DNA of 16,959 bases from the NCBI GenBank assembly GCA_002695185.1, contig NZOF01000105.1:1-16959 (forward strand). The letters are read 5' to 3'. The translations under genes and the position numbers were made by a program. This document shows positions 189-16,198 of this stretch, one piece after another (within the stretch, counting starts at the first letter, position 1; each line of letters starts with the position of its first letter). This DNA is from Erythrobacter sp. Lineage in GTDB: Bacteria > Pseudomonadota > Alphaproteobacteria > Sphingomonadales > Sphingomonadaceae. The notes under the pieces were generated by a model. The model was not told the origin of the DNA and did no database searches. It worked only from the letters and a program-made list of their open reading frames with translations.

Positions 189-788
189 ATGTTGATTTTG
201 GAGACAGTGGTTCGGATTCGGCGCGAGTATGCCGGCGGCAAGGCGATCAAGGCGATCGCGCGGGATTTGCATGTGTCGCGGAAGGTGATCCGCAAGGCGA
301 TCCGGGCGCCGGAAGGCGCATTCGACTATCAGCGCAAGGTTCAGCCACTGCCTAGGATCGGGCCGTTTCAGGATCGCCTGAACACACTGCTGGAAGAGAA
401 CGAGGTGCGCGGCAGGCGCGAGCGACTGCGGATGACGCGGATACATGATCTGCTGGAGCGCGAAGGTTTTGAGGGTTCCTACGATGCCGTTCGGCGCTAC
501 GCGGCGCGCTGGAAGGCCGACCGGCGCAAGGATGCCGGCGATGGTGTCACCGCCTTCATCCCGCTGATGTTCAAGCCGGGCGAGGCCTACCAGTTCGACT
601 GGAGCCATGAGGATGTGGAGATCGCCGGCAAGCCGATGCGCGTGAAGGTTGCGCATATGCGGCTGTGTGCATCGCGGGCGGTCTATGTCCGGGCCTATCC
701 GCGCGAGAGTCAGGAGATGCTGTTCGACGCGCATGCGCGCGGCTTTGCTTTCTTCGGCGGCGTGCCGGGCCGCGGCATCTACGATAAT
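189..788 (+). pseudogene. istA: IstA transposase, N-terminal part (split by IS1111-type insertion)
   Basis: These are the first 200 codons of an IS21-family IstA. A helix-turn-helix lies near residues 16-36 (KAIKAIARDLHVSRKVIRK). The DDE core begins with FDWSH (Asp137), and the second catalytic Asp199 is in the motif GIYDN at the very end. The ATG at 189 follows the left terminal repeats closely, as expected. At 788 the frame enters the IS1111-type element and reads 34 foreign codons to a stop at 891-893. Joining 788 to 2114 restores a continuous 504-residue IstA, a normal length. The separated product lacks the catalytic Glu and should be inactive. Confidence 0.93.
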
Positions 789-790
789 CT

Positions 791-804
791 ATGGACGCCT
801 CCCG
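791..804 (+). repeat. IS1111-type subterminal inverted repeat, recombinase-distal end
   Basis: ATGGACGCCTCCCG here is the exact reverse complement of 2092-2105. It starts two bases inside the left junction. Confidence 0.92.
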
Positions 805-842
805 CCGCAAGGCGTTTTCGGTCTGGTGCGCTCGGCATGGCT

Positions 843-1030
843 TGCGTGAATCTATCCGGCCTTCTGCTGGAGCAATTCCGCCCCTGGCCTTGATGGGAGT
901 CCGCTGCCTCTTGCCTCATAACATGATCGGCCTTGCTGGCCTTGTCGTAAATCAGGCTTTGAAGCGGCGGCCCTTGCCGTTGCACCATCACTATCCACCT
1001 CGCATTTATCGCCGTTTTGGCGGCGACCCC
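843..1030 (-). ncRNA. Predicted bridge RNA (seekRNA) of the IS1111-type element
   Basis: This non-coding end lies downstream of the recombinase and reads on the same (minus) strand. Three structures can be drawn by eye. A 5' hairpin has CGCCG/CGGCG arms (1010-1025). A target loop is closed by GCCU (957-954) with AGGC (916-913) and capped by GGCC-AGCAA-GGCC (941-929). A donor loop is capped by GGCC (889-886) with GGCC (861-858). In the target loop the 5' strand AUUUACGACAA (952-942) matches istA ATCTACGATAA (777-787) at 9 of 11 positions. The 3' strand UCAUGUUAU (926-918) pairs with all nine bases of ATAATATGA, using one G:U. In the donor loop UCCCAU (898-893) equals the right junction (2105-2110). 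AUAGAUU (855-849) is the complement of the left junction AATCTAT (786-792). RNA ends are uncertain. Confidence 0.72.
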
Positions 1031-1043
1031 TTAGCCTGCTTGA

Positions 1044-2048
1044 TCAGCCGGGCATGTAACATTCCTTCCGCGCGAGCAGCACCCAAGCGATGCGAGCCGT
1101 CTTGTTGGCGAGTGCAACAAGGGCTTTATTGAAGCCGGCGCGGGCGACGATCCCTTTTAGCCATGCTGAACGCCGATCGTCGCGTCCGGCCAAGCGGCTA
1201 ATGACTGCGCGGGCACCATGGATCAGTTGACGCCGCAGATAATGATTCGCACGTCGACCGATGCCACCAAGCCGAGGCTTGCCGCCGGTCGTGTATTGTC
1301 GCGGTACGAGACCGATCCATGCAGCCAGTTCGCGGCCTGAACGAAAGTGTCGACCATCATCAACTGCAGCGACAAGGGCAGTCGCAATGACTGGCCCAAC
1401 ACCCGGCAACGCAGCGAGTCGGCGACAGGCATCATGCTCTCGGCAGATTCTGACCAGTTCAGCATCGAGCTTGGCAAGCCGCGCTTCGACGTCTCGAAGT
1501 TGGTCCAGAAGCTCGGTGAACAGTTCTCGGGCAAGGTCGGAGAGGCCCGCCTCCTCGATTGCCTGCGGCGCCTGATCGCGGAAGCGCCATGGCCCTTTAG
1601 GAAGTACGACACCGTATTCGGCGAGCAATCCGCGTGCGTGATTGATGAGCGACGTGCGCTGGATTACCAGACGCTCTCGTACGCGATGCAGCGATTGCAA
1701 GTCCTGCTGCTCAGTGGTCTTCACTGGCACGAAGCGCATAGTTGGCCGTGATGCTGCGTCGTAGATCGCCTCCGCATCGACTGCATCGTTCTTCGAACCG
1801 CGCACAAACGCCTTCACGAACCGCGGATTGACAAGCCGTACTTCCCGGCCGGCCGCTCGGAACTGACGCCCCCAGTGGTGGGCGCTCGCGCACGCCTCCA
1901 TTGCAATGGTATCAGGTTCAAGTTCCGCCACAGCGCTCTCAAGCTTAGTGCGGCTCACCTTACGTGAGATCACAACGCCGTGAGCATCAATGCCGTGCAG
2001 GTGGAACGATTGCTTCCCGAGATCGATCGCCAGCATTTTCATGGTCAT
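1044..2048 (-). CDS. IS110-family (IS1111 group) RNA-guided DEDD recombinase
   Basis: The 334-residue protein has an N-terminal RuvC-like DEDD domain: MLAIDLG with Asp9, AMEAC with Glu51, and KNDAVDAEA with Asp88 and Asp91. A coiled-coil-prone middle (about 170-205) follows, then a C-terminal transposase_20 domain with LPGVGPVIATALVAAV (214-229) and the motif YTTGGKPRLGGIG (252-264). The start was set at 2048 because AAGGAGG lies just upstream; a longer frame to 2105 would run through the inverted repeat. Relatives recombine donor and target DNA guided by an RNA from the same element. Where many IS1111 relatives have Ser-Thr-Gly-Gly, this protein has Thr-Thr-Gly-Gly. The gene is otherwise full length and looks intact. 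Confidence 0.93.
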   Translation of the reverse strand: MTMKMLAIDLGKQSFHLHGIDAHGVVISRKVSRTKLESAVAELEPDTIAMEACASAHHWGRQFRAAGREVRLVNPRFVKAFVRGSKNDAVDAEAIYDAASRPTMRFVPVKTTEQQDLQSLHRVRERLVIQRTSLINHARGLLAEYGVVLPKGPWRFRDQAPQAIEEAGLSDLARELFTELLDQLRDVEARLAKLDAELVRICREHDACRRLAALPGVGPVIATALVAAVDDGRHFRSGRELAAWIGLVPRQYTTGGKPRLGGIGRRANHYLRRQLIHGARAVISRLAGRDDRRSAWLKGIVARAGFNKALVALANKTARIAWVLLARKECYMPG

Positions 2049-2091
2049 CGCCTTCCTCCTTGTTGGTTGAACACCCATGGTGCCTGGAAGA

Positions 2092-2105
2092 CGGGAGGCG
2101 TCCAT
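2092..2105 (-). repeat. IS1111-type subterminal inverted repeat, recombinase-proximal end
   Basis: CGGGAGGCGTCCAT is the exact reverse complement of 791-804. It is separated from the ATAAT junction pentamer by CCC. Confidence 0.92.
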
Positions 2106-2113
2106 CCCATAAT

Positions 2114-3028
2114 ATGAAGACGGCGGTGACGAGCGTGTTCACGGGGAAGGAGCGGGTCTTCAACCGGCGGTTCCTGATCATGACCGACCATTATATGGTC
2201 GAGCCCACCGCCTGCTCGCCGGCGGCGGGATGGGAGAAGGGCCAGGTCGAGAACCAGGTGCAGACGATCCGGGGCCGCTTCTTCCAACCCCGGTTGCGGT
2301 TCGCCAGCCTCGACGAGCTCAATGGCTGGCTGGAGGCCGAGTGCCAGCGCTGGGCGGAACGACAGGCACACCCGGAACAGGGCGAGCTGACCGTGGCGCA
2401 GGCGCTGGAGATCGAGCGATCGGCACTGCAGCCGATGCTGGGACCGTTCGACGGCTTTAACGAGAGCGAGCATGCGGTGACGGGCACCTGCCTGATCAGC
2501 TTCGATCGCAACCGCTACTCGGTTCTCTCGACGGTGGCGCGGCGGACGGTGCAGGTCCGGGCCTATGCCGACCGCATTGTCGTGCGCTGCGGCGAGGAGG
2601 TTGTCGCCGAGCATCCCCGCTACTTCGGGCGCAACCGCACGATCTATGACCCCTGGCATTATCTGCCGGTACTGGCCCGCAAGCCCGGAGCGCTGCGGAA
2701 CGGCGCGCCCTTCCAGGACTGGGATCTGCCGCCGGCGCTGGCGCGCCTGCGCCGCAAGCTTGGCAATGGCGACGATGCCGACCGCCGGTTCGTCCGTGTG
2801 CTGTCGGCCGTGCTGACCGATGGTCTGGAGCCGGTCGAAGCGGCCGTCCGCGAGGCATTGGCGACCGGCACGGCGAGCGACGACCTGATCCTCAACATCC
2901 TGGCGCGGCGCCGCGAACCGCCGCGACCGCTCACCATCATCACCTCCGAAGACAGCGCCTTGCGCCATCCGCCGATCGCCGACTGCGCCCGTTACGACCA
3001 GCTGAGGACCTTCGATGCAGCGGCATGA
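2114..3028 (+). pseudogene. istA: IstA transposase, C-terminal part (split by IS1111-type insertion)
   Basis: This is the remaining 304 codons of IstA, beginning MKTAV and continuing in frame from codon 200 before the insertion. It holds the third catalytic residue, Glu246, in GWEKGQVENQV (240-249), followed by the conserved C-terminal IS21 region. The open frame extends upstream into the IS1111-type element to 1964, but the residues before 2114 are foreign. It overlaps the start of istB by 14 bp. Without the N-terminal helix-turn-helix and the two Asp residues it cannot be a working transposase. It could still be transcribed from an outward promoter and so support istB translation. Confidence 0.93.
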
Positions 3029-3743
3029 CATGATCGAGGCGATGCGCGGGCTTGGGCTCAAGGGCATGGCGGGCGCGTTCGACGATGCGGTCACCACCGG
3101 CCTTCAGCGCCAGCGCACCACGATGGAGATACTGACCGACCTTCTGCGCGCGGAAGCAACACATCGCCATGCTGCCTCGATCCGATACCGGATGGCGGCC
3201 GCCCGGCTGCCGGTCGTGAAGGATATCGATGCGTTCCGGTTCGAGGGCACGCCGATCAACGAGGGGCTGGTGCGTTCGCTGCACAGTGGCGCGTTCCTGC
3301 CCGCTCGGCGCAACATCGTCCTGGTCGGCGGCACAGGCACCGGCAAAACCCACCTGGCCATCGCCATCGCCGCCAATGTCGTTCGCTCGGGTGCGCGAGG
3401 CCGCTACTTCAACACCGTCGATCTGGTGACCCGCCTCGAAGAGGAGGCCAGGATCGGCAAGAGCGGCGCTCTCGCCGCCCAGCTATCCCGCCTCGACCTG
3501 ATCGTGCTCGACGAACTGGGATATCTGCCGTTCGCCCGCTCGGGCGGCCAGTTGCTGTTCCACCTGATCAGCAAGCTCTACGAGCAGACCAGCGTCATCA
3601 TCACCACCAACCTCGCGTTCGGCGAATGGCCCACCGTGTTCGGCGATCCCAAGATGACCACCGCGCTCCTTGATCGCGTCACCCACCATTGCGACATCGT
3701 CGAGACCGGCAATGACAGCTGGCGCTTCAAAAACCGCAGCTGA
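3015..3743 (+). CDS. istB: IstB AAA+ ATPase, IS21 transposition helper
   Basis: The 242-residue protein matches IstB over its full length. Walker A is GGTGTGKT (105-112), Walker B is DLIVLDE (161-167), and sensor-type motif [13 protein letters not shown] lies near 195. The C-terminal [15 protein letters not shown] is typical of the family. IstB is a DnaA/DnaC-like ATPase that oligomerises on DNA and regulates IstA in target selection. Its ATG lies inside the 3' end of istA (stop at 3026-3028), so translation is probably coupled. The gene is intact, but its IstA partner in this element is split. Confidence 0.95.
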
Positions 3744-3834: not shown

Positions 3835-3869
3835 GCGCGTGTCCGATCAACCTTGCGCCATCGTGAAAG

Positions 3870-3915
3870 GGGGTCCCTTTTGCGCGCCGATAGGGGGTCC
3901 CGTTTGCACGCCGAT
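3870..3915 (-). repeat. IS21 right-end tandem binding repeats (R2, R1)
   Basis: Two 22-bp repeats lie at 3870-3891 and 3894-3915. Both have the form GGGGTCCC, a T-rich stretch, then GCGCCGAT or CGCCGAT. They are the inverted counterparts of the left-end repeats at 81-137. The element ends at the CA of 3919-3920. Confidence 0.85.
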
Positions 3916-3920
3916 TGACA

Positions 3921-4236
3921 CGCTATGCTCCCAGGCGTCGCCAAAGTCGTAGAGATATCGGAAAGTCTTGCGCCTCGTATCCGCCAGGACCTGGGCGAGA
4001 GTGGCCTTACGGGCGTCGAGCGGCCCGTCGAAGCCATATTCAGGATCAGGGATGCCGAAGCCGGTCTGCCCGAAGCTCATTTCCCACAGATGAGAGTCCG
4101 TCCACGAGAAGGCGGTCTGGATGACGGTGTGCAGACGGTCGAGGCGGATATTGAGCGGCACCTCCAGCGTTCGGCTCACGGCCGGTGTCACATCGTCCAG
4201 CGTAATCTTCATCCGCACGATAGTGCTGTTGCTCAC
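3921..4236 (-). pseudogene. pRiA4b ORF-3-like protein, truncated by IS21
   Basis: From GTG at 4236 the protein VSNSTIVRMKITLDDVTPAV runs to YLYDFGDAWEHSV (about residues 92-105). This fits the plasmid pRiA4b ORF-3-like family (PF07929), which is named after an Agrobacterium Ri-plasmid gene and has no established biochemical function. The conserved YDFGD-WEH block is the last native sequence; the IS21 end follows immediately, and translation would run 24 foreign codons to a stop at 3847-3849. The start GTG overlaps the tnpC stop in the form GTGA, so the gene was a coupled distal member of the IS66 operon. The ATG at residue 9 is an alternative start. Confidence 0.8.
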
Positions 4237-5840
4237 GCAGCCTTCTCCAGATCGTTGGTCAGCTTTGATGCCTGCCATTTCCACGGCAGGAAGTCATCGA
4301 TCCGATTGATCGGGTGATTGCCGATGCGCTCAATGACGTCTGTGAACCACGCCTCGGGCTCGACGCCGTTGAGCCGGCATGTACCGGCCAGAGAGTAGAA
4401 GAGCGCGGCGGCCTCTCCACCCTTCATAGAGCCGACGAACATCCAGTTTCGGCGCCCGAGCGCGACACCGCGCAGGGCGTTTTCCACCAGATTGTTGCTG
4501 ATCTCGAGCTGACCATCATCGCAGTAGCGGATCATGGCCTGCCAGCGATTGAGCGGATAGCGACAAGCCCGCGCCAGATTGCTGTCGGAAGACAGGCCTC
4601 GGTTCTGGGTTTCGAGCCACACGCGCAATGCCTCCAGCTTGGGCACCGCCTTGCTCTGGCGGATGCGTCTTCGCTCATCGGGTGGCGCACCCTTGATATC
4701 GCGCTCGATGGCGAAGAGTTCGGCGATCCGCACGACCGCCTCCGCCGCGATCGGTGACGGGCTCTTTTCCAGTATGTCGGTAAATTTCCTGCGACTGTGA
4801 CTCCAGCATCCTACTTCGACGATGTCCCTGGGCGCCTTGGTTTTGGGATCGCGGTAAAGCGCATTATAGCCAGCAAAACCGTCCGCCTGGAGATACCCCT
4901 GATAGCCGGCGAGATGTTCTGCCGGATGCGCTCCGCCACGATCGGCGCTGAAGCGGAAGGCTACGGCAGGCGGGCTCATGTCACCGCTTGAACGATCATC
5001 GCGCAGATACACCCAGAAGTGCCCGGTCCGGCTGCCATCGCCATTGCCCAACAACGTGACCGGCGTGTCGTCCCCGTGGATCTTGGCGGCTTCCCGGATA
5101 TAGGCGAACAACCGCTCGCCCAGCGGCGCCAGCAGCCATGCCAGTTTTCGCGCCCAGCGGCTCATCACATCCCGATCAATGTGAAGCCCAACGCGGCGGA
5201 AGATTACCGACTGCCGATGCCAGGGCTGGTGATCGACAAAGCGATTGACGACGAGGTGGGCCAGCAAGGCGCTGCTCGCCATCACCTTGGGCAGCGGCAG
5301 ATCGACGGCGGGCGCCTGGCGGATCTGCTCGCAGGACCGGCACACCAGCCTGGGCCGGACATGGCGGATGACGCGGAAGCGCGCCGGGACATAATCGAGG
5401 ACCTCAGTGACGGCCTCGTCGATCTGGACTGACGGTCCGTTACAACCGCCACTGCATGGGCTGGGCTGATGATCGACGGTCTGACGCGGGAAGTGCGCCG
5501 GAAGCGGAACGCGGCTGCCAGGTTTGCGGGCCGATTTTGCTACCAGCGCCGCCGGCACCTCATCGTTGGCGGGTTCCGGCGCCTCGACCTCCTCGAACAT
5601 CAGCCGCAGCTGGGCGATATCCATTTTCTCGGAGCTGCGGCCGAACTGGACGCGCAGCAACCGCGCGACACGATGCTCGAGCTTTTCGATCCGCAAGGTC
5701 TGGGCTTTGACCGTAGCTTCCGCGGCCCTCAGTTCGGCCCGTTCCCGCTCCATGACATCGGCCATCTCCAGCAGCATTTTCTGCAGGAGAACCGGGTCTG
5801 TGGGGAGGCGATCAAGGGCGAACCGCATGGTCTCAACCAT
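4233..5840 (-). CDS. tnpC: IS66 transposase TnpC (DDE)
   Basis: The 535-residue protein has the complete IS66 layout. An N-terminal coiled coil spans about 30-65 (ERAELRAAEATVKAQTL). A zinc-finger pair is Cys129/Cys133 and Cys167/Cys170. The DDE catalytic domain has HGDDTP (Asp257), LQADGFAGY (Asp320) and NNLVENALR (Glu453), with the signature CWSHSRRKF at 345-353. The frame is open to a TTG at 5858, but ATG at 5840 (MVETMRF) is the first standard start; a second ATG lies four codons on. There is a 55-bp gap from tnpB. It is the catalytic subunit that works with TnpA and TnpB, and it appears undamaged. Confidence 0.93.
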   Translation of the reverse strand: MVETMRFALDRLPTDPVLLQKMLLEMADVMERERAELRAAEATVKAQTLRIEKLEHRVARLLRVQFGRSSEKMDIAQLRLMFEEVEAPEPANDEVPAALVAKSARKPGSRVPLPAHFPRQTVDHQPSPCSGGCNGPSVQIDEAVTEVLDYVPARFRVIRHVRPRLVCRSCEQIRQAPAVDLPLPKVMASSALLAHLVVNRFVDHQPWHRQSVIFRRVGLHIDRDVMSRWARKLAWLLAPLGERLFAYIREAAKIHGDDTPVTLLGNGDGSRTGHFWVYLRDDRSSGDMSPPAVAFRFSADRGGAHPAEHLAGYQGYLQADGFAGYNALYRDPKTKAPRDIVEVGCWSHSRRKFTDILEKSPSPIAAEAVVRIAELFAIERDIKGAPPDERRRIRQSKAVPKLEALRVWLETQNRGLSSDSNLARACRYPLNRWQAMIRYCDDGQLEISNNLVENALRGVALGRRNWMFVGSMKGGEAAALFYSLAGTCRLNGVEPEAWFTDVIERIGNHPINRIDDFLPWKWQASKLTNDLEKAA

Positions 5841-5895
5841 AGCCGAAGCCCACGGCAAAACCTACATAAAATGGCGGTTTTCCTGATCTTTTTGG

Positions 5896-15798: not shown

Positions 15799-15843
15799 CA
15801 TTTCTGAAGAGAGCCCGAGCGGGCGAAAGGAATGGAGAAATAT

Positions 15844-15984
15844 ATGGGACGTCAGCGATTTACGCCGGAACAGATCATCGCGAAGCTGCGTGAGGTTGAT
15901 GTGATTGTCGGGCGAGGCGGGACCACCGACGAGGCCTGTCGTCAGATCGGGATTGCCGAACAGACGCTATATAGGTGGCGTAAG
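15844..15984 (+). pseudogene. IS3-family orfA remnant (helix-turn-helix only)
   Basis: MGRQRFTPEQIIAKLREVDV and the following AEQTLYRWRK are the N-terminal helix-turn-helix of an IS3-family OrfA (transposase_8). Homology stops after RWRK at 15984, where typical OrfA proteins continue with a leucine-zipper region; here about 31 unrelated codons lead to a stop. The start at 15844 is supported by GGAG six bases upstream, with ATG 15832 as alternative. No OrfB or right end follows, so the element was broken by a later rearrangement. Confidence 0.82.
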
Positions 15985-16034
15985 GCGACAGCCGCTGCTT
16001 CATATTCGTTGATAATGTCGGTCTTCTTCGCCAT
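15984..16034 (-). pseudogene. 5' scrap of an unidentified gene cut by the IS3 remnant
   Basis: On the minus strand ATG 16034 opens MAKKTDIINEYEAAAVA, a sensible protein start that runs straight into the IS3 remnant at 15984 and stops shortly after. I cannot assign a family from 17 residues, and no ribosome site stands out. It may be the beginning of a gene whose remainder was lost when the IS3 fragment arrived, or chance. Confidence 0.3.
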
Positions 16035-16036
16035 GA

Positions 16037-16079
16037 TAAGCTCGTACGCACTACGTTGTTCGACTGTCGCACGAGCTTA
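16037..16079. repeat. 9-bp inverted repeat around a 25-base spacer
   Basis: TAAGCTCGT (16037-16045) and ACGAGCTTA (16071-16079) are exact inverted copies. They lie immediately upstream of the short minus-strand frame at 16034. Function unknown. Confidence 0.35.
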
Positions 16080-16198
16080 ATCGCGCGGTCGATTCAGCTA
16101 CCGTAGTAACGGCCTGTCATCAACAGCCAGCGCGTTCGTTTTTTGCCGTTTCTCTTTGACAATCCAGTTCTAAAGAAACGCTTGGAATCGGATGCGTC

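Follow-up and report, generated by a model that had tools for sequence, protein, structure and literature searches.

Guide-like segments in the non-coding end of an IS1111-type element match the istA site that it interrupts

The window, a 16,959-nt stretch of an Erythrobacter sp. contig (NZOF01000105.1), contains an IS21 element with istA at 189-3028 and istB at 3015-3743, and its istA is broken by a 1,325-bp IS1111-type element at 788-2112. This nested arrangement raises the question of what directed one insertion sequence into the transposase gene of another. The genes of the interrupted IS21 are:

189..787, plus strand: 5' half of istA, the target gene, ending in ..IYD and the AA of an Asn codon; NCBIfam transpos_IS21 positions 1-184 of 294, 174.4 bits (cut-off 160)
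2113..3028, plus strand: 3' half of istA, starting with T, the third base of that Asn codon, then MKTAV..; transpos_IS21 positions 186-292, 100 bits as a fragment (cut-off 160)
3015..3743, plus strand: istB of the same IS21; IstB_IS21, 237.5 bits

The cut-off of 160 is set for the whole protein. As the halves match positions 1-184 and 186-292 of the transpos_IS21 model, the break falls at position 185, the Asn codon. The Asp preceding this Asn is, we assume, the second catalytic residue of the DDE triad. The 5' half also matches positions 3-67 of the 102 in the Pfam rve profile at 22.3 bits, under the cut-off of 32.6, and the 3' half yields a Mu-transpos_C_2 match of 74.6 bits; istA is split inside its rve domain, between 787 and 2113. 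Elsewhere in the window, a pRiA4b ORF-3-like gene (Pfam PRiA4_ORF3, 101 bits; 3850-4284, minus strand) overlaps the 3' end of an IS66 tnpC (4236-5858, minus strand), as if carried by the IS66 element, and a short open frame at 15832-16080 resembles, by eye, a truncated IS3-type orfA.

The interrupting element has the following parts:

788..2112, minus strand (transposase sense): IS1111-type element, 1,325 bp, its ends ambiguous by 5 bp and placed from the empty site and the 7-bp/3-bp rule
1044..2042, minus strand: DEDD transposase gene, 332 aa; it scores 331.7 bits with NF033542 (IS110 family RNA-guided transposase; cut-off 140) and also matches DEDD_Tnp_IS110 and Transposase_20
791..804, plus strand: subterminal inverted repeat (sTIR) of the right (RNA) end, 14 bp, perfect complement of 2092-2105
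2092..2105, plus strand: sTIR of the left end, 14 bp, from the sequence
788..790, minus strand: 3-bp terminal extension of the right end, AGA, from the sequence and the empty site
2106..2112, minus strand: 7-bp terminal extension of the left end, TTATGGG, from the sequence and the empty site

An uninterrupted istA with the corresponding empty site, CATCTACGATAA^TATGAAGACGGC, occurs in Sphingobium xenophagum pSH2 (L179), where 488/488 positions are identical to the window on each side (up to 787 and from 2113) and the two segments directly abut. The gap between flanks in this intact copy is 0 bp, so that, given the 5-bp end ambiguity, there is no target-site duplication. Because ATAAT is common to both junctions, the exact ends rest on the rule that the sTIRs of IS1111 elements, usually 11-13 bp, are extended by 7 bp on the left and by 3 bp on the right (Siddiquee et al. 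2024, PMC11187229, cited here and below from excerpts). The initial annotation had spoken of a junction pentamer; such a pentamer exists as the ATAAT ambiguity, and the rule sets the element ends at 788 and 2112. The transposase start at 2042 was taken from the CDS annotation of an identical copy (L113), and the open frame extends to 2105. A non-coding region of 256 bp (788-1043) lies 3' of the transposase, compared with just 70 bp on the opposite side, from 2042 to the element end. The DEDD transposase, the sTIRs with 7-bp and 3-bp extensions and the long downstream non-coding region place the element in the IS1111 group, and a related element is annotated as ISAtu1 family (NC_002377).

Within this non-coding region, the following RNA features were assigned:

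834..990, minus strand: seekRNA/bridge RNA core as modelled, 157 nt; consensus fold and covariance model R1, 171.6 bits, the 27 sequences of the model including the window itself
967..970, minus strand: 5' strand of the target-loop outer stem, CCGC; partner GCGG at 901-904, 100% of cells paired
954..957, minus strand: 5' strand of the target-loop closing stem, GCCU; partner AGGC at 913-916, pair column 63/108 being GC in 19, UA in 7 and CG in 2 of 28 sequences
942..952, minus strand: target guide 1, AUUUACGACAA, the complement of the right half-site as read on its top strand (transposase sense)
918..926, minus strand: target guide 2, UCAUGUUAU, in the same sense as the left half-site plus TTAT
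893..898, minus strand: donor guide 1, UCCCAU, which complements the left end TTATGGGATGG
849..855, minus strand: donor guide 2, AUAGAUU, in the same sense as the right end CCATAGA plus TT

The initial annotation had proposed a bridge-RNA-like structure at 843-1030 with four guide segments. A structure of this kind is present and all four segments lie on the minus strand where they had been placed, but the RNA core as modelled spans 834-990. Scored on L113, which is identical over the query, target guide 1 forms nine Watson-Crick pairs and one G:U pair over 11 positions, and target guide 2 forms six and one G:U pair over the seven positions scored. Guide 1 (952-942), the top-strand complement, precedes guide 2 (926-918) in the RNA, which is the IS1111 order. 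We compared these matches with those that arise when the 243-nt non-coding end is dinucleotide-shuffled (20,000 shuffles), using spacing limits set after the native case was known. A match of at least 10/11 to target guide 1 alone arose in 1,056 shuffles and a 9/9 match to target guide 2 (G:U allowed) in 11; the two target guides in order and with their spacing arose in none of the 20,000, and neither did the donor guide pair.

The single-sequence fold is mildly better than those of shuffled sequences (z = -2.09; 6 of 200 shuffles as low), a signal too weak to be relied on. Conservation of the fold was assessed in an alignment of 28 distinct sequences (the window and 27 relatives; 227 columns), from which L013, a copy that has lost its target loop, was excluded. 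RNAalifold, run on these sequences without prior knowledge of the loops, recovered the stems closing the target loop and the donor hairpin. In the consensus fold, 98.3% of 952 cells are paired, compared with 29-44% when the partners are slid, and 30 cells are changed on both sides, compared with 8.4 in shuffles; two of five fold measures lie within the shuffle range (97/500 and 213/500). The outer stem differs between drawings, RNAalifold placing it at columns 13-17/182-186 and the hand-drawn fold at columns 15-22/217-224 and 41-45/191-195, and as both count well it was left unassigned between them. The structure is thus conserved among homologous elements, with covariation.

A covariance model was built from 27 of the 28 sequences (L070 excluded). 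At E <= 0.01, with E-values that are rough, this close-family model detects the RNA at 65 of the 85 distant loci and has no match at the other 20. Where the RNA found by the model could be placed, it lies 53-139 nt past the extrapolated stop in 53 of 56 rows. A search of the window against Rfam gave no match at the gathering score.

If the RNA directs insertion, its target guides should follow the insertion site from copy to copy. The close set comprises 38 insertion records, 37 of them with both target guides. L013, without a target loop, and L001, whose right flank is too short, were left out, and 11 more rows dropped out because their left flank was missing or short or because they were duplicates (36 rows giving 25 unique pairs). 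In the permutation tests that follow, related copies are counted as independent and registers were fixed after the alignment had been viewed, so that the counts are not strict probabilities. We found that target guides match their own flanks at 16.32 of 18 positions, compared with 12.24 (sd 0.77) when guides and flanks are permuted (0 of 20,000 permutations as high). This contrast is mostly one between target types. Inside a single type the native advantage is small: 16.73 compared with 16.27 in the YDN set (15 pairs; 32 of 20,000 permutations as high) and 15.70 compared with 15.45 in the orfA set (10 pairs; 656 of 20,000). Weak fits also occur, L124 matching guide 1 at only 6/11 and L011 matching guide 2 at 5/7.

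Among distant IS1111 elements, which occupy varied sites, the native score is 14.11 and the permuted score 11.46 (sd 0.17; 37 unique pairs, 0 of 20,000). This set derives from 64 of 68 model hits, excluding the window, one of the two hits in each of L061 and L072, and the truncated L025; eight had no inverted repeat found and some others a wrong repeat, and boundary filters left 38 rows, 37 of them unique. The target loop thus changes along with the insertion site in close and distant relatives alike. The donor guides follow the element ends in the same manner. Donor guide 2 matches the right-end junction (five element and three flank letters) at 6 or more of 8 positions in 63 of 71 records, scores 6.70 natively and 4.31 when permuted in 54 distinct cases (0 of 20,000), and changes with the right end, whose forms include ATAGA, ATATA, ATACA, ACAGA and some rarer ones. 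At least five letters of donor guide 1 are matched in 50 of 59 records. Guides that fit their own flanks are found in many other IS1111 copies, and the window is not the rare self-documenting case that it had been taken for.

We then consider where members of the clade are inserted. Among the 38 close records, 32 lie in genes of other insertion sequences: 21 in istA, one in an IS3 transposase and 10 at IS3 orfA. In each of the 21, one or both flanks code for part of IstA, and the site consists of GI(Y/F)DN codons, which include the presumed second catalytic Asp. Right-flank IstA matches, whose identity to the reference ranges from 36% to 100%, end at reference residue 199, beside the junction, in 16 of 19 cases (exceptions L013, L070 and L119). 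In L122 the interrupted gene codes for an IS3-type transposase: past the junction it matches transpos_IS3 positions 315-369 at 35.6 bits (a fragment score, under the cut-off of 160), and ahead of the junction it reads, by eye, GDSYD. In the 10 orfA records, IS3 orfA lies at the junction or at most about 25 nt from it, and HTH_Tnp_1 scored above its cut-off in all four tested. Six records were not placed in an insertion sequence gene: L086 interrupts a gene without a Pfam or NCBIfam match, the flank search for L017 gave no match, and the left flank is absent from the records of L022, L090, L092 and L124. Beyond the close set, eight relatives were found in viral contigs, all at most 50% identical, and a 261-bp query run against 385 genomes from the class, with two candidates scored per genome in the rows listed, gave no match and says nothing either way.

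In a quick transposase tree of 40 rows (L157 dropped as short, L089 typed by eye), the istA, IS3-YDN (L122, L089) and orfA types each occupy one side of a branch (SH-aLRT 97, 99 and 99), so re-addressing appears to be rare on the scale of the tree. Elements of the istA and orfA types can share a genome: Sphingobium fluviale (G682) carries the istA-type L007 and the orfA-type L156, each at its own target. The record L086 is the same as L121 (Sphingobium sp. MI1205 pMI2), an orfA-type element at a site that fits its guides at 10/11 and 6/7; this insertion suggests that a sequence rather than a gene is what the guide addresses.

Three further copies are of individual interest. L013 (Aminobacter sp. 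AP02, about 1356-1560) is flanked by istA and keeps the donor loop of its RNA, and with its target loop lost it is possibly immobile. L142 and L138 (Rhizobium leguminosarum pRLgr12_2) are two copies of one element; their left flanks agree over the letters compared and their right flanks diverge after 11 nt, which suggests a rearrangement adjoining the insertion site. In L123 (A. tumefaciens pAtCFBP6626c), an annotated IS6 transposase gene adjoins the 3' end of the transposase and the usual RNA end is absent.

These distributions might have arisen in other ways. If the transposase protein alone, or homology of the flanks, picked the site, the RNA-like matches being remnants or coincidence, one related clade would also be expected to land repeatedly in istA. 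This explanation does not account for guide and site changing together between clades and in distant elements. It also sits poorly with a single RNA sequence shared by L003, L006, L007 and L009, whose IstA 5' halves are 85%, 42%, 85% and (over 85 codons) 92% identical to one reference, and with the identical orfA-type RNA of L086 and L156, which lie in the unmatched gene and in IS3 orfA, respectively, and have a short site in common. Siblings with identical loops thus occupy very different genes, yet the same short site. We consider a choice by protein alone very improbable. A single ancient insertion into IS21, inherited or moved along since, would make the shared site a matter of descent rather than of repeated targeting, and the common end point of 16 of the 19 right-flank IstA matches is what descent would produce. 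The same four identical RNAs in divergent IstA genes argue against it, however, as does the intact empty site in L179, and a split istA should not move by itself; descent of this kind is hardly credible.

The preference for istA could also be a sampling effect, istA being common, its loss tolerated and the guide having many other sites. The 16-mer compatible with the guides, ATYTACGAYAAYATGA, reaches 12 and 9 copies in two genomes, and one orfA-type copy interrupts a gene that matched no family, as this account would have it. On the other side, the 16-mer is nearly confined to istA: a search for exact matches in 199 genomes of the same family found it 39 times, in 15 genomes, and 29 of the 30 sites retrieved fall within IstA-coding matches, while the reversed 16-mer, as control, gave none among the matches listed. 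We regard a sampling effect as unlikely. Selection for harmless sites may have shaped the guide. Among 18 istA records, guide 1 is mismatched at flank position 3 (the Asp codon's third base) in nine, and at positions 6, 7, 10 and 11 in two each, with G:U pairs at positions 1 (four records), 6 (one) and 9 (six). These mismatch positions indicate that the imperfection of the guide is partly, but not wholly, synonymous variation.

As the guides fit, the fold is kept and the guides co-vary with the flanks, we identify the RNA as one of a known kind, the IS1111 seekRNA or bridge RNA. The minus-strand RNA of about 834-990 is very likely the seekRNA/bridge RNA that directed this IS1111-group element into istA, a reading already put forward in the initial annotation and now supported by the computational checks proposed with it: fold covariation, a target loop that tracks the site and the shared short site. 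To the anatomy of the locus, its empty site, the guide matches to target and donor, the conserved fold and the co-variation in relatives, published work on other IS1111 and IS110 elements adds, by analogy, how insertion may have proceeded. The RNA would be transcribed and processed and then bound by the DEDD transposase of the element; its donor loop would recognise the joined ends of a circular form, and its target loop would pair with both strands of the short istA site, that is, the Ile-Tyr/Phe-Asp-Asn codons followed by Met-Lys. Recombination catalysed there would place the element between 787 and 2113 and so split istA in its rve domain.

Much of this system has been described. The seekRNAs of IS1111 elements, their matching of two target strands and their natural and experimental re-addressing were published by Siddiquee et al. 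(PMC11187229), who report for other IS1111 elements that the seekRNA co-purifies with the transposase and is required for movement, and for ISEc11 RNA species of about 80 nt and 150 nt; bridge RNAs with donor and target loops, and covariation of loop and target, were published by Durrant et al. (2024, PMC11208160, likewise cited from excerpts). The window element resembles ISEc11, ISKpn4, ISPa11 and ISPst6 as described in PMC11187229 in its downstream non-coding region, sTIRs with 7-bp and 3-bp extensions and DEDD transposase, and in a top-strand complement that precedes a bottom-strand match, both target strands being matched. The targets given for those elements are a short linear site, attC or REP, whereas the window element lies in transposase coding sequence and is known from sequence alone. 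It shares with IS621 and other IS110 bridge RNAs loops that match the target and the element ends, and the co-variation of loop and target (PMC11208160), but in the IS110 group the RNA is mostly upstream of the gene and the order of the strand matches is reversed (PMC11187229). A parallel to the differing target loops and sites of the related elements studied here is the natural reprogramming of ISEc11/ISXne4, for which one pair is named (PMC11187229), compared with three clades and many copies in the present set.

The ISAtu1 family belongs to the same clade: five Agrobacterium copies (L070, L115, L117, L119 and L120), whose best segments are 73-77% identical to the window transposase, are flanked by istA halves at the same site as in the window, as judged from their sequences, and no paper naming ISAtu1 was found in the literature searched. 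Other transposons are also struck by the IS1111 elements IS4321/IS5075, which, reportedly according to Partridge and Hall in 2003, target the inverted repeats of the Tn21 family; these are terminal repeats rather than codons of a transposase catalytic site. In the literature searched, in which most papers were judged from listings, we found no description of this clade addressing other transposons, and the targeting of istA is likely, though not proven, to be previously unreported. The RNA system itself is known, and what is added is the target class, transposase active-site codons, and the addressing of insertion sequences across a clade.

On balance we favour the view that this IS1111 clade is specialised as a parasite of other insertion sequences, with a guide that encodes the presumed second catalytic Asp codons (IYDN) of rve-type transposases. 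Its 16-18-nt address would occur hardly anywhere but in IS21 istA, would be recognised in IstA genes whose proteins share about 40% identity and would partly tolerate synonymous third-position changes; each insertion should inactivate the IS21 copy concerned, and among related clades the targets would be this motif in an IS3 transposase and the beginning of IS3 orfA. One recombinase lineage re-addressed through its target loop, with a nearly constant donor loop, forms a natural and readily testable series. If this view is true, the clade is a case of RNA-guided parasitism of transposon on transposon and would supply bridge-RNA work with compact guides that tolerate mismatches. It suggests that the active site, being the least changeable part of a protein, can give RNA-guided elements a durable address in the DNA of another element.
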